Source: Eubacteriales bacterium (GTDB lineage: Bacteria > Bacillota > Clostridia > Lachnospirales > Lachnospiraceae). Taken from it: DNA of 46,865 bases. The DNA lies in assembly GCA_030524585.1 (NCBI GenBank), contig JAUNGJ010000020.1:1-46865 (forward strand), in the 5' to 3' direction. The notes under the pieces were generated by a model. The model saw only the letters and a list, made by a program, of their open reading frames with translations. It made no database searches and was not told the origin of the DNA. Below are positions 22,476 through 27,914 of the stretch, one piece after another (position 1 is the first letter of the stretch; the number at the start of each line of letters is the position of its first letter). The translations under genes and the position numbers were made by a program.

Positions 22476-25223
22476 TCACAAATCCAATCCGGGTTCTTTC
22501 TTGCCGAGCCTAATATCCTCCATATGCTGTGCAAGCTCCTCATCCATATAGTCAAACAGATAATTCCTTCCATTCTGTCTGTGGTGTTCCCATTCTTCCC
22601 GGATTTGCCGGTTTACAATCTCAACCTCTTCTTTAAATTCCCTTGCGGAAATCAATTTGGCGCCCTGACCGGTGGTAATTACCTGCTCTACTCCGTCTGA
22701 GGTTGCAACCGTAACATGATATCTGCGGCCAATCTCGTGGACCACCTTTTCAATATACTGATCGGCCGTCTCCGCCTCTTTCGTATATACCACATGAATA
22801 TTGTGATATCTTTGTATCTCCAGGACCTCTCCGTCTACCTTATAGGCATCGAACACCAAAATCAGAACGCATTTCTTAAATCCCTGATAGTTGCTCAGAA
22901 TATCCATTAATTTATTTCTGGCTGCTTCAATATTATCCTTTGCAAGCTCTTTCAGCTCCTCCCACGCAAAGATAATATTGTATCCATCCACCAGAAGATA
23001 TTCCTTCTGACCTGCAGCGTTTTTCTTTTTCTTCTTCTCTGTCTGCGCCACTACTGTCCGTCCGGCAGGCGGATTCCGCCGTTCGATCTTCCCGTAGGTA
23101 CGGATGAAAATATCTTCCAGCTCCTTCTCTTCCCTGGCATTCCAGCCTGATGACATAGATGGCGCTTTCTTGCCGGACATCCTGCTTTTCCCCCCGAAAG
23201 AGCCACGCCCGGCCTCTGTCCGTTCCCTATCCAGCCGCTTTTTCAGCTGACTCTCAATATGCATATGCCGGAACACCTGACTCCAGGGAACATAGTACCC
23301 AGCTCCATGAGAGCAAAAGACAGAACCCGTCGGATTATCGATATCTGCCTCCGGATCGTAATCTATTGCTTCTATAATTTTCTCCGGATTCCCACACGGC
23401 TCATACCCTTTTAGTGTGCAGAACAATCTTCCTCTGCCTCTGGTATAGGCGGTCAATTCCATCTGGTAATCCCGCATTCCGGCCACCGGCGCACTTCCCC
23501 TTATAATCGACATTTCTCCATCTGTCTCGGGCGGCTCAAATTCTCCGTTCATTTTTTGAATATCATTCAACGCCCGTCCCACATTTTCTGCCGGAAGCTC
23601 CAGGCAGAACGCATAATATGGTTCCAGAAGAACACTCTCCGCCTGCATAAGCCCCTGTCTCACAGCACGGTACGTCGATTGACGAAAATCGCCGCCCTCT
23701 GTGTGTTTCAAATGAGCACGTCCTGCCACTAATGTGATCCGCATATCAGTAATCGCTGAACCGGTTAGTACACCTCTGTGCTCTTTTTCATACAGATGTG
23801 TCAAGATCAATCTCTGCCAGTTTTTATCCAGCATATCTTCACTGCAGGCTGACGCAAATACCAGACCGCTGCCAGGCTCTCCAGGTTCCAGTATCAAGTG
23901 CACCTCTGCATAATGGCGCAATGGCTCAAAATGTCCCACACCCTCTACCGTATTTCGAATGGTTTCTTTATACACAATATTACCTGCGTCAAAGGATACG
24001 CTGACACCGAACCGCTCCTGAATCAGACTCTTCAGTATCTCAATCTGAATCTCACCCATCAGCTGGACATAAATCTCACCAAGCTCCTCATTCCACAGAA
24101 TATGGAGCATCGGGTCCTCTTCCTCTAATTGACGCAGGTTCAAAAGCATAGTATGTGCATCCACTTCCTCCGGAAGCAGGATGCGATAACTGAGCACCGG
24201 TTCCAGCATAGGCGGAGCCGACTCTTCTTCTATACCCAATCCTTCTCCCGGATAGGCCGCGCTCAGCCCGGTTACGGCGCAGATCATTCCCGCCGGCGCC
24301 TCCTGAACCATTTCATATTTTTCACCGGAATAAATGCGAATCTGATTCACCTTTTCTTCCCAGATGGCTCCATCAGCCGCATCAGCTGTCCGACCGTTGG
24401 TCAGTAGCTCCTTCACCTTCAGACAGCCGCCGGTAATCTTCATATGGGTTAGTCGGGCTCCGGAAGAATCCCTGGTTATTTTATATACTTTAGCTCCAAA
24501 TTCTTCCGGATACTCCGGATGTTCCATGTAGTCTTCCAGGCCCTGCAGAAATTCCTTCACGCCCCAGAGCTTTAAAGCAGATCCAAAATAGCAGGGAAAT
24601 ATCCTTCTCGTACGGATCAGTCTCCGCAAAGTCACTCTCGTTAGCTGTTCCGTATCCAGATATTCCTCCATCGCCGCTTCTTCCGTCACTGCAATGCTCT
24701 CCAATATCTCTCCCTCTGGTTCCCTATTTGCAAATGGAATGCACCCATCTGAAAGACTATTCTTCAATTCTTCTATCAGCCGTCCTTCATCCGTTCCTTC
24801 CTGATCCATCTTATTGATAAACAGAAATACAGGAACCTCATATCTCTGAAGCAATTTCCACAATGTTCTGGTGTGTCCCTGCACACCATCTGCCCCGTTG
24901 ATAACCAGAATCGCATAATCCAGAACCTGCAGCGTCCGCTCCATCTCCGCAGAAAAGTCCACATGTCCCGGTGTGTCAAGCAAAGTCACGCTCAACCCAC
25001 CCAATTCAAACTCCGCCTGCTTGGAAAAAATAGTGATCCCCCTGCTCTGCTCCAGCTCATGGGTATCCAGATAGGCATCTCCATGATCTACTCTTCCAAG
25101 CTTTCTGATCCTGCCGGTTTCATAGAGCATACTCTCCGACAGCGTCGTTTTCCCCGCGTCCACATGGGCCAACAGACCCACACAAATATGTTTTTTTACT
25201 CTTTTTGGTTCTTGTTCGCCCAT
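22476..25223 (-). CDS. TetM/EF-G-like ribosomal GTPase fused to a Rae1/YacP-type NYN endoribonuclease domain
   Basis: The first 660 or so of 915 residues are an EF-G-like translation GTPase of the ribosomal-protection (TetM/OtrA) type: AHVDAGKT (19-26), RGIT (61-64), DTPGH (83-87), NKMD (137-140), domain IV near GVGHFEPLRHYAEV, and a final EF-G-like domain. A basic, Ser/Gly-rich linker (about 670-740) leads to an NYN/PIN domain (741-915) resembling B. subtilis YacP/Rae1. Its acidic residues are kept: D746 in LLVDGYN, D792 in VFDAYKV, D821 in ETADQYIE, D843 in TSDGVEQ. Rae1 cuts mRNA in the ribosomal A site, so the fusion could release or cut stalled complexes; that is inference. ATG 25223 follows AAAGGAGG. 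Tetracycline resistance cannot be assumed. Confidence 0.88.
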   Translation of the reverse strand: MGEQEPKRVKKHICVGLLAHVDAGKTTLSESMLYETGRIRKLGRVDHGDAYLDTHELEQSRGITIFSKQAEFELGGLSVTLLDTPGHVDFSAEMERTLQVLDYAILVINGADGVQGHTRTLWKLLQRYEVPVFLFINKMDQEGTDEGRLIEELKNSLSDGCIPFANREPEGEILESIAVTEEAAMEEYLDTEQLTRVTLRRLIRTRRIFPCYFGSALKLWGVKEFLQGLEDYMEHPEYPEEFGAKVYKITRDSSGARLTHMKITGGCLKVKELLTNGRTADAADGAIWEEKVNQIRIYSGEKYEMVQEAPAGMICAVTGLSAAYPGEGLGIEEESAPPMLEPVLSYRILLPEEVDAHTMLLNLRQLEEEDPMLHILWNEELGEIYVQLMGEIQIEILKSLIQERFGVSVSFDAGNIVYKETIRNTVEGVGHFEPLRHYAEVHLILEPGEPGSGLVFASACSEDMLDKNWQRLILTHLYEKEHRGVLTGSAITDMRITLVAGRAHLKHTEGGDFRQSTYRAVRQGLMQAESVLLEPYYAFCLELPAENVGRALNDIQKMNGEFEPPETDGEMSIIRGSAPVAGMRDYQMELTAYTRGRGRLFCTLKGYEPCGNPEKIIEAIDYDPEADIDNPTGSVFCSHGAGYYVPWSQVFRHMHIESQLKKRLDRERTEAGRGSFGGKSRMSGKKAPSMSSGWNAREEKELEDIFIRTYGKIERRNPPAGRTVVAQTEKKKKKNAAGQKEYLLVDGYNIIFAWEELKELAKDNIEAARNKLMDILSNYQGFKKCVLILVFDAYKVDGEVLEIQRYHNIHVVYTKEAETADQYIEKVVHEIGRRYHVTVATSDGVEQVITTGQGAKLISAREFKEEVEIVNRQIREEWEHHRQNGRNYLFDYMDEELAQHMEDIRLGKKEPGLDL

Positions 25224-25226
25224 GAA

Positions 25227-25281
25227 ATCGCCTCCTTTCGTGATTGCATACTGTTCTAAGTATATCACAAGAGGAGGCGAT
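25227..25281 (-). repeat. 18-bp inverted repeat covering the ribosome binding site of the GTPase-NYN gene
   Basis: ATCGCCTCCTTTCGTGAT (25227-25244) and ATCACAAGAGGAGGCGAT (25264-25281) pair in 17 of 18 positions counting one G-U. An inner ATAC/GTAT helix extends the stem. In RNA from the minus strand, the downstream arm holds AAAGGAGG, the Shine-Dalgarno sequence. Confidence 0.8.
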
Positions 25282-25287
25282 AGTCGA
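25259..25287 (-). promoter_or_regulatory. promoter of the GTPase-NYN gene, embedded in the inverted repeat
   Basis: Minus-strand TCGACT (25282-25287, four of six) and TATACT (25259-25264) are spaced by 17 bases. TGA precedes the -10, making it extended. The start point near 25252 excludes the upstream arm of the repeat from the RNA. Confidence 0.6.
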
Positions 25288-25319: not shown

Positions 25320-25864
25320 TCAATGCCGATCAAACCACAGCAGCAGCCTTTCATACTCTTCGTCCGAAATCTGCAAAACGCCGCCATGACGTTTTTTTAT
25401 TTTCCCCATATCATATTCATCCGGAGCCAATATTCTGAAATCACCGGAAGACAGATTTTCTGTCAGCATCGGCAGATAGCCCTTTCCGGTCATGAACTGA
25501 TCTGCTATCAGACACCATGTTTTTCCATCGGGAAGCAGGAAACCTTCCGGTCCCTCCACACCTTCCAGTGCACCAGATCCTCCGTTTCCCATATGATTAT
25601 ACTTTTACTTCCATTTTCCCGGGCGTCTTCCCACCCTCTGCCTGCTTCAATCCGCAAATCCGTGGCAATCAGGTAAATCCTTCCTGTCTTAGGGTTCCTA
25701 ACCAGAAACGGATCACGTACCCTGCAGGTGCCTGTCTGTGAAAAAAGTACGGGCGTTCCATTATTCAAATCCCTCCAATGCAGCCCATCCCGACTCACTG
25801 AAAAATAGATCTGTTCCCCATCCTTCTCTTCACCAATAAAATGTGCAAATAAGTATGCTGCCAT
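25320..25864 (-). pseudogene. GH43 (arabinosidase/xylosidase type) pseudogene with internal deletion
   Basis: The 5' part (ATG 25864 behind AAGGA) encodes a normal GH43 beginning, with YLFAHFIGEEKDGEQIYFS, DGLHWRDLNNG and VRDPFLVRNPKTGRIYLIATDL, up to ETEDLVHWK. The next codons run out of frame. The GH43 C-terminal part, EGVEGPEGFLLPDGKTWCLIAD through RHGGVLQISDEEYERLLLW, continues in the neighbouring frame from about 25590. Roughly 140 residues expected between, including the catalytic acid region, are missing. The join lies near GGAAGGTGTGGAGG. Total coding left is about 180 codons against about 300 in the family. It follows the GH127 gene by 37 bp and was probably its operon partner. Confidence 0.8.
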
Positions 25865-25901
25865 GTTTTCCTTCATTCTACTCGTCTTTAGAGGCCTGTA
25901 T

Positions 25902-27914
25902 TTAAATTCTTGTCCAAACCTGCATTTCTCCCTCTCCTCTGTTTGCCCATGCATAATAAGGAATCCAGGTCAGTTCCGTCCGCTCATATTCTATTTTATC
26001 ATATGCAAAGTATAAGCCTGCATTCTGTGCCTTTCGCTGCCGCCAGCCCTGTGCCCTGATTGCGATTACCGATTCCAGGGCAATCTTCTTCTCCTCCGTC
26101 TCAAATGAAGCGTCCTCATCCATTTTTAACAGGTGCATATCCTTTCCGTTGTCAGCTTCTTCCATACAATATACAACGGGTCCCCGCATAACGGCTGCTT
26201 TTCCGATATTCTCCCGAACTCTGGAATCTGCTTCCAGCACTTGAATTTCCATCGGAAATTCAATCTGAAGGACATCTGACTTCCACGCTTTTGTAAGATA
26301 TAAATAGCCGTCTTTTTCCTGAGCCGCCGCATTTTCTATTCCATTTATCCGGAAATTCCGGCCCCAACTCGGAATACGGAGCGCGATCGTAAATGTTTCC
26401 TCCGTTTCGCACTCCACACGGATGCTTACATTCCCATTCCAGGGAAATCCGGATTGCATATCAATTCTTACCGAATCTGATTCCAATTTCTTTTCCATCT
26501 GGATTCCCATGTACAAATGAACAAAAACCGTGTCCTCTGTCTCTGTAAATACATAAGACCCAATGGAGCCGACCAATCTTGCCAGATTCGGAGGACAGCA
26601 GGCACATCCAAACCATTTCTGTCTCACTGGCTTTACATGCTCTTTCCGGCTATCTTTGTGGCATGCTTCCGGAACCACCTCCAGAGGATTTACATAGAAA
26701 AAGCTGGTTCCATCCAATCCCATACCTCCTAAAACAATGTTATAGAGTTCCCGCTCCATAATATCCGCATACTTGGAATTCGGACACATTTCCAACATTC
26801 TCTGTGCGAAAAAAATCATTCCAATTGAAGCACAGGTTTCTGCATAGACCGTATCATTCGGCAAATCATAGGCGAAGGAAAATGCCTCCCCGATATGAGT
26901 GCTCCCTATTCCGCCGGTAATGTACATTTTCTTTTGCGTGATATCATCCCAAAGCCGTTCACACGCGGCTTTCAGCTCCTCATCCGATGTCAGCCTTGCA
27001 AAATCCGCCATTCCGGAATAAAGGTAGACCGCTCTCACCGCATGTCCTACCGCCTCCGTCTGTTCCCGCACCGGCAAATGTGCCTGATGATACTGATAGC
27101 GCAGCTTCTCATTTTCCTTAGCATCCAACGGATGCTCCATATCAAAAAAATAAGGTCTTTTCCCTCTTTCATTGATGAAATACAATCCCAAATCCCGGTA
27201 TCTCTCCTGTCCGGTAACCGCATATAGCTTCGCCAGCGCCATTTCAGCGATTTCATGTCCCGGATATCCATGTAATTTACCGGTTTCCGGACCAAAGTGC
27301 TCCGCCACACAATCCGCATACCTGCAGGCTACTCCGAGTAATCTGTCTTTTCCTGTCGCCTGATAATAAGCCACCGCTCCCTCGATCAAATGGCCCAGGC
27401 AATACAGCTCATGATGGTCCCGCAAATTGGTAAAGCGCTTGCTGATATCGTTGATAATGTAAAACGTATCCAGATAACCGTCCGGCTGCTGAGCGCGATA
27501 CACAATCTCAATCGCTTCGTCAGCGGTCTTCTCCAGTTCCGGATTCGGATACTGGCGCAGAATATAGGCCACCGCTTCGATCCATTTTGAAAAGTCGCTG
27601 TCCTGAAAAACAAAACCATAAAATCTCTCTTCCGGCTCTTTGGGATTCTCCGGCCAGACACAAAAGCCGTTGGTCGTATGAACCGGCTGTATATAATCTG
27701 CTTCCTGTTCGATCTTCCGGTTAATCTTCCCTGCCACCTTATAGTTATGCATACAATAACTGGGCTGCGCATCCGGCACTCTGTCATTCAGCGCTTCCCA
27801 CTGATAAGGGATAACCGTATCGCGCACCAATTCAATCTCCTTTTTCCAGAACGTATCCGTAACCTGGATCCGATTCAGATCAATTACATTTGAAATTCCT
27901 TTACTTTCTGCCAT
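25902..27914 (-). CDS. hypBA1: GH127 beta-L-arabinofuranosidase
   Basis: The 670-residue protein matches the GH127 (formerly DUF1680) family, whose model HypBA1 removes beta-L-arabinofuranose from arabino-oligosaccharides of plant hydroxyproline-rich glycoproteins. The zinc/cysteine active site is intact: E359 and C361 in YAETCASIG, and C439-C440 in FGCACCPPNLAR. HELYCLGHLIEGAVAYYQATG and the GYPGHEIAEMALAKLY block are typical of the (alpha/alpha)6 barrel. There is no signal peptide, so the enzyme is intracellular and needs an imported oligosaccharide. The ATG follows AAGGAAAAGAAGAAT, a modest binding site. The GH43 partner downstream is broken, and no arabino-oligosaccharide transporter is beside it. 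Confidence 0.93.
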   Translation of the reverse strand: MAESKGISNVIDLNRIQVTDTFWKKEIELVRDTVIPYQWEALNDRVPDAQPSYCMHNYKVAGKINRKIEQEADYIQPVHTTNGFCVWPENPKEPEERFYGFVFQDSDFSKWIEAVAYILRQYPNPELEKTADEAIEIVYRAQQPDGYLDTFYIINDISKRFTNLRDHHELYCLGHLIEGAVAYYQATGKDRLLGVACRYADCVAEHFGPETGKLHGYPGHEIAEMALAKLYAVTGQERYRDLGLYFINERGKRPYFFDMEHPLDAKENEKLRYQYHQAHLPVREQTEAVGHAVRAVYLYSGMADFARLTSDEELKAACERLWDDITQKKMYITGGIGSTHIGEAFSFAYDLPNDTVYAETCASIGMIFFAQRMLEMCPNSKYADIMERELYNIVLGGMGLDGTSFFYVNPLEVVPEACHKDSRKEHVKPVRQKWFGCACCPPNLARLVGSIGSYVFTETEDTVFVHLYMGIQMEKKLESDSVRIDMQSGFPWNGNVSIRVECETEETFTIALRIPSWGRNFRINGIENAAAQEKDGYLYLTKAWKSDVLQIEFPMEIQVLEADSRVRENIGKAAVMRGPVVYCMEEADNGKDMHLLKMDEDASFETEEKKIALESVIAIRAQGWRQRKAQNAGLYFAYDKIEYERTELTWIPYYAWANRGEGEMQVWTRI

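Follow-up and report, generated by a model that had tools for sequence, protein, structure and literature searches.

Fusion of a Tet/EF-G-family GTPase with a Rae1-type nuclease in Lachnospiraceae, most likely a housekeeping gene rather than a tetracycline-resistance gene

EF-G-family factors reach the ribosomal A site with domain IV. The tetracycline ribosomal protection (Tet) proteins dislodge tetracycline with the loops of this domain (PMC4342817, in the part of its text available). Rae1 of Bacillus subtilis, or YacP, was reported to be a ribosomal A-site endoribonuclease that cuts mRNA there, and its access may rise on stalled ribosomes (PMC6613710, in the sections available). One known target of Rae1 is S1025 (PMC11780869). 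The accessible portion of Atkinson 2015 (PMC4342817) describes ten clostridial species whose Tet proteins have gained an NYN RNase domain resembling YacP, possibly as an antibiotic resistance mechanism. Here we analysed a gut-bacterial fusion gene of this kind in a stretch of 46,865 nucleotides (contig JAUNGJ010000020.1 of a Eubacteriales bacterium of the Lachnospiraceae; this whole stretch is called the window). The architecture is not new, having been in print since 2015; what is added here is a separate clade for the fused GTPases and the replacement of free rae1. The gene is most likely a housekeeping gene and not a tetracycline-resistance gene, as judged from its sequence and distribution, and Rae1 of the host family most likely exists as this fusion, tethered to a ribosomal GTPase of its own.

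The fusion gene encodes 915 amino acids (aa) in one open reading frame (ORF). An earlier note on this DNA had placed it at exactly 22476..25223, leaving unstated that it lies on the minus strand, and its proposal that a Tet/EF-G-family GTPase and a Rae1-type nuclease are joined agrees with the profile searches and with the sequence matches to solved structures. The match to NYN_YacP (PF05991) is nearly full-length and scores 183.4 bits against a Pfam cut-off of 24.6. The last 181 residues match in sequence the B. subtilis YacP/Rae1 structures 5MQ9 (95 bits) and 5MQ8 (94 bits) with E about 5e-26, and the NYN domain and its conserved acidic residues are common to both proteins. For the whole protein, the best solved relatives in a PDB sequence search are TetO (247 bits) and TetM (243 bits). 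The EF-G-like domains and G motifs are shared with Tet(M)/Tet(O), and the domain order and GTPase motifs are also those of EF-G. The EF-G_D2 score (25.1 bits) is just under the 27-bit Pfam cut-off. The features of the gene are as follows.

22476..25223, minus strand: fusion gene, 915 aa, ATG start at 25223-25221
25231..25238, minus strand: Shine-Dalgarno-like AAAGGAGG, 7 nt upstream of the ATG
25259..25287, minus strand: weak promoter-like TCGACT-17-TATACT, with TG preceding the second hexamer
24522..25196, minus strand: G domain, residues 10-234 (Pfam GTP_EFTU), with AHVDAGKTT, DTPGHVD and NKMD intact
24258..24497, minus strand: EF-G domain II, residues 243-322 (Pfam EF-G_D2, weak match)
23991..24203, minus strand: EF-G domain III, residues 341-411 (Pfam EFG_III)
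23640..23981, minus strand: EF-G domain IV, residues 415-528 (Pfam EFG_IV)
23682..23714, minus strand: domain IV tip HLKHTEGGDFR, residues 504-514, a family hallmark
23391..23633, minus strand: EF-G domain V, residues 531-611 (Pfam EFG_C)
23259..23390, minus strand: C-terminal extension of the GTPase, residues 612-655, with SVFCxHGAGF
23001..23258, minus strand: linker, residues 656-741, poorly conserved
23091..23123, minus strand: short conserved linker motif ELxxIFxRTYG, residues 701-711
22509..22997, minus strand: NYN_YacP (Rae1) nuclease domain, residues 743-905 (Pfam), with D746, D792, D821, E825 and D843

The earlier note had asked how often the fusion occurs and whether its carriers lack a free rae1. 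In a family sample of 150 Lachnospiraceae genomes, one per genus, PF05991 was found in 135. With the fused and free classes of the surveys assigned by ORF length, 121 of them carry it in ORFs of at least 690 aa, nine as a free protein of 174-260 aa (G059, G024, G099, G007, G020, G016, G054, G029 and G068), and five are unclear, being contig ends or broken frames (G095, G042, G128, G140 and G098). The second matches of G039, G076 and G130 represent fragments, or parts of a single ORF, that of G039 being cut by the contig end. The window's own genome (91.8% complete) has a single PF05991 match in a profile search, the fusion, and no other copy. In the order sample, PF05991 was present in 93 of 116 genomes, with 35 fused by length, 57 free and one broken (G188). 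Two of the fused genomes have a second match in frames of 48 and 62 aa, and G232, which lacks PF05991 and has a 66% identical ORF at a contig end, was treated as carrying a truncated fused gene and not a stand-alone one. No second full-length rae1 thus turned up in fusion genomes of either the family or the order sample, and the fusion looks to have replaced the separate gene in the host family. In the class sample, PF05991 was found in 161 of 245 genomes; the matches listed show two fused copies in G391, and G394, G456 and G495 have second matches beyond those listed. In the phylum sample, 33 of 348 genomes gave a GTPase match with an E value of 1e-55 or lower; 13 genomes outside the class have ORFs of 877-909 aa, candidate fusions by their length. 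Among the best 80 of 210 relatives, all 80 are fused, in a set biased to fused genes because the query was the fusion itself. They include Blautia, Dorea, Coprococcus comes, Anaerostipes, Faecalicatena, Extibacter muris and [Clostridium] clostridioforme, and the closest is from an uncultured Lachnospiraceae (77% in the best segment).

The location of rae1 and the trees both bear on the origin of the fusion. In free-rae1 loci, rae1 lies directly 3' of rlmB in 8 of 11, with mrnC, whose product is rRNA-directed, upstream. After rlmB, rae1 was missing in all six fusion genomes checked (the window's own, G102, G035, G104, G175 and G220). The order in the own genome (contig C35), G102, G035 and G104 is cysS-mrnC-rlmB-sigma, with the rlmB and sigma frames overlapping. 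The rae1 of B. subtilis stands as a separate gene in one transcript with yacO, the homologue of rlmB (PMC6613710, available sections), whereas here it is fused and away from rlmB. A place beside rlmB is usual for rae1 and does not strictly define it. The fused GTPases form one clade in a tree of 21 rows (support 100/99) and in a second tree of 27 rows from 14 families (SH-like approximate likelihood ratio test, SH-aLRT, 99); the Tet rows split from the fused and stand-alone rows with 100/100 in the first tree and are also separate in the second, with few Tet rows per tree (two, plus L108), EF-G excluded from the second tree, and L138 and L034 long-branched. Stand-alone relatives surround the fused clade, with ORFs mostly of 640-690 aa that are 38-49% identical. 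Because they end shortly past a conserved ...MH, the fusion can be described as a stand-alone GTPase plus linker plus Rae1. In the NYN tree, the fetched free domains of the host family and order group with the fused ones (100/100) against the two from another family of the class; monophyly of the fused NYN domains was not resolved in this tree (56% of bootstrap trees). In the simplest history, a single move would have taken rae1 from its place next to rlmB and attached it behind the GTPase gene, and the fusion, which is widespread, apparently had a single origin.

Two family genomes (L111 and L116) have a free rae1 away from rlmB, yet unfused. Four stand-alone GTPases (L097, L098, L099 and L102) come from genomes without PF05991 and, together with L081, branch nearest the fused clade. 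The four may descend from fusions that lost the NYN, or they may stand near the ancestral partner.

Conservation was compared in fused ORFs fetched from 118 other loci, each unbroken and with GTPase and NYN both verified, of which 115 are distinct. As so many could be fetched and compared, the fusion is not a chance event. Sets of 119 rows are the window plus these 118; three repeats (L043/L173, L048/L160 and L050/L167) leave the 116 distinct proteins, window included, on which residues were counted. L136, with an internal stop, was excluded from the residue counts and trees, and L138 was excluded from the counts for an NYN score under the threshold used, though Pfam detects the domain. The GTPase is complete with intact G motifs, as the earlier note had read it: H87, which we take to be the catalytic His, N137, K138 and D140 are present in 116/116, and K25 in 115/116, the other row being a gap. 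Its claim of conserved NYN acids also held, D746, D792, D821, E825 and D843 being invariant in the 116 fused proteins and in 11/11 free Rae1. E818 is E in 106 and Q in 10 of the fused rows. Domain IV is the best conserved part among 19 fused sequences aligned. The ratio of nonsynonymous to synonymous substitution rates (dN/dS), computed for 8 of 13 close pairs (7 of the 8 being distinct), ranged over 0.015-0.13 (NYN), 0.09-0.28 (GTPase) and 0.16-0.33 (linker), with NYN below the GTPase in 8/8 pairs; in pairs that include the window's protein, dS shows partial saturation, and dN is likewise lower in NYN. Because of these lower ratios, the nuclease is estimated to be the most constrained part of the fusion protein.

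The linker from H655 to D746 has 72-144 residues (median 88, 119 rows), and its net charge has a median of +2 and a range of -5 to +11 in the same rows. The window, with +11, stands at the top of this range, so the basic linker seen in the earlier note is an extreme case and not a family trait. The linker motif is kept at E701 (115), I705 (114), T709 (110) and R708 (100 of 116), the strict ELxxIFxRTYG pattern occurring in 82/116 fused proteins and a looser one in 87/116. It is absent from 23 stand-alone GTPases and 11 free Rae1, as expected for proteins with no linker there. The C-terminal extension is common to fused and stand-alone GTPases; C637 is found in 115/116 and H655 in 114/116 fused proteins, and the adjacent C610 of domain V in 116/116. 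A PDB search with the extension gave no relative, only chance antibody matches (E 1), and a metal site formed by its Cys and His residues is a guess. A separate NYN product from an internal start was rejected as a general trait, a start codon with a Shine-Dalgarno sequence before NYN being found in only 15/114.

The note had called the protein TetM-like. Membership of the Tet/EF-G family stands, and the narrower term is loose in view of the separate clade and a domain IV tip of its own. The best NCBIfam model for the window protein is tet_protect, and on the tetracycline ribosomal protection model NF012153 it scores 425.7 bits, under the NCBI cut-off of 775. Six other fusion-type proteins (three stand-alone, the Ligilactobacillus salivarius copy and two fused) score 309-450 bits, whereas L106 and L108, two real Tet proteins of the survey, reach 853 and 1001 bits. 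Identity between the fusion and the Tet rows L106-L108 is about 30-33%. The tip is HxKHTxGGDFR in nearly all of the 116 fused and 23 stand-alone rows, with H507, T508 and D512 in 116/116 fused, against YSPVSTPxDFR in L106-L108; the tip loop of the EF-G row L119 is also unlike that of the fusion. Since Tet proteins dislodge tetracycline with these loops, the altered tip appears relevant, but it is no proof that drug protection is absent. This simple tip motif separates fusion-type relatives from true Tet genes. Further differences from Tet(M)/Tet(O) are the extra C-terminal extension and location, as the fusion is not usually on plasmids: a match over 80% of the query was found in only 2 of 72,556 plasmid records, and some match in 1069. 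On the EF-G equivalog TIGR00484 the protein scores 303 bits, below the cut-off of 659, and a plain EF-G paralogue was ruled out by this score and by the C-terminal parts. A third Tet-like group (L104 and L105) has HxxH-type tips (HVMHSNPGDF and HVVHTKAPDF) and scores 606 and 561 bits, below the Tet cut-off.

Labels in RefSeq are uneven. A fused protein of Agathobacter rectalis is labelled TetM/TetW/TetO/TetS although it scores 389 bits against 775, and a fused Monoglobus protein is labelled "translation factor GTPase family protein". The same Tet label stands on stand-alone copies of L. salivarius on 13 listed plasmids; one such copy (L222 4019-5938) scores 381 bits against the same cut-off. 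The earlier note had suspected that the resistance label may be wrong, and by these scores it appears doubtful. Tetracycline data on L. salivarius (PMC5605976) were uninformative in the text available, in which the fusion-type gene was not typed, and a literature search for minimum inhibitory concentrations of Lachnospiraceae carrying the fusion found nothing usable. In a literature search done largely without full texts, no functional work on the fusion was found, and the available text of PMC4342817 was its only description. The Tet-NYN proteins there have the same architecture, a Tet/EF-G-like GTPase with NYN_YacP, and are classed as Tet with a possible role in resistance, whereas a separate clade was found here, to which the ten species may belong.

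On balance, and with modest confidence, the gene probably encodes a single-polypeptide, ribosome-directed mRNA endonuclease, which would have arisen when Rae1 left its ancestral operon and became joined, a single time, to the end of a chromosomal GTPase of the Tet/EF-G family. Ribosome binding and endonuclease activity are expected from what is known of the two families. In the proposed mechanism, the GTP-bound GTPase part would dock at the factor site when the ribosome's A site is open or stalled, the own-type domain IV tip would probe the decoding region, and upon GTP hydrolysis the GTPase part would move out. NYN, on its linker of about 90 residues, would then enter the A site and cut the mRNA, and the truncated message would be left for decay and ribosome rescue. 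Sequential action is proposed because domain IV and Rae1 cannot occupy the A site at once; the order of the hand-over and the stalled-ribosome trigger are guesses. A more specific version can be put forward tentatively, as a possibility somewhat short of even: a bacterial counterpart of GTPase-delivered no-go decay, in which the GTPase checks the stalled A site and hands over to the tethered Rae1 as the main ribosome-coupled mRNA endonuclease of Lachnospiraceae, with the ELxxIFxRTYG motif and the Cys/His extension serving as novel elements of the coupling. Were that version true, tetracycline-resistance labels on such genes would be wrong. If the fusion acts on ribosomes as proposed, the gene found at fused length in 121 of 150 Lachnospiraceae genera would be a translation quality-control enzyme coupling a ribosomal GTPase to mRNA cutting, some copies of which carry an antibiotic-resistance label. 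The fusion makes the route of Rae1 to the A site testable.

Several observations weigh against this endonuclease reading. The A site would be contested by both domain IV and Rae1, which makes it unlikely that the two act at the same time. PF05991 is missing from 15 of the 150 family genomes, of which 12 have a completeness of 90% or more, and all 15 also lack the GTPase; therefore the gene is dispensable and can be lost. A stand-alone fusion-type GTPase was found in 13 class-sample genomes, six of which lack PF05991 (G438, G322, G290, G461, G295 and G338, three of one genus), as does a fourteenth left out of the count, G490, with the GTPase in two pieces. In the order sample, 12 of 13 stand-alone-GTPase genomes have a free Rae1, the thirteenth being 77% complete. 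The GTPase occurs in only 12 of the 57 free-Rae1 genomes of that sample, compared with 1 of 23 without PF05991, a difference that is not significant (p 0.095). The GTPase and Rae1 would thus each have a use in the absence of the other, and their joining may be a matter of convenience. The earlier description of the protein as self-contained is affected in the same way: it is plausible, no neighbour being widely shared, and it is weakened by those six genomes in which the GTPase occurs without PF05991.

A form of this objection is that the two halves do separate jobs, the GTPase being an EF-G-like maintenance factor to which Rae1 is attached for co-expression or dosage, with no mechanical coupling. 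Both halves do exist alone, five of the nine free-Rae1 family genomes also carry a stand-alone GTPase, on a different contig (G054, G029, G059, G024 and G099), six genomes have the GTPase without PF05991, and the linker is long and variable. We nevertheless regard separate jobs as unlikely, since one clade is maintained across 14 families, E701 and I705 of the linker motif are nearly invariant, and contig ends or broken frames were met in just 5 of the 126 non-free PF05991 family genomes, so re-splitting is rare. That the protein protects ribosomes against tetracycline or another A-site drug, the RNase adding to resistance as suggested in the available text of Atkinson 2015, has on its side the TetO and TetM structures as nearest relatives, the tet_protect model and the RefSeq labels on one fused copy and the L. 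salivarius plasmid copies. It is decidedly improbable in view of a score far under the Tet cut-off and those of true Tets, the invariant H507 and T508 in a separate clade, the presence of a fused-length gene in most family genera, and its rarity on plasmids. Moreover, four fused class-sample genomes (G154, G296, G309 and G409) also carry a Tet-length gene of 643-644 aa with 30-32% identity, of which the one scored on the Tet model (L106) passes. Tetracycline protection was accordingly judged not to be the main job. Finally, NYN might act on rRNA or tRNA instead of A-site mRNA, guided to ribosomes by the GTPase for rRNA processing or turnover. The available part of PMC4342817 cites an older suggestion that NYN domains serve in the maturation of rRNA and tRNA, and free rae1 adjoins mrnC and rlmB in relatives, rlmB being rRNA-directed (PMC6613710, available sections). 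This possibility is very slight, as B. subtilis Rae1 was reported in the same sections to cut A-site mRNA.

The neighbourhood of the gene was compared over the 119 loci; flanks were retrieved for only about the 20 best of the 28 family-sample loci known to hold a window-type fusion. No neighbour family was found in more than 22 of the 119 loci, with flanks of unequal length, and a conserved operon partner was rejected on this count. The lack of a widely shared neighbour fits a gene that needs no operon partner. Promoter-like sites of the type seen upstream of the gene number 7 in the region against 5.9 expected, making this one a weak candidate. Between the fusion gene and a GH127 gene lie two overlapping minus-strand ORFs in different frames (25320-25592 and 25508-25954), neither with a Pfam match, which look like one interrupted gene.

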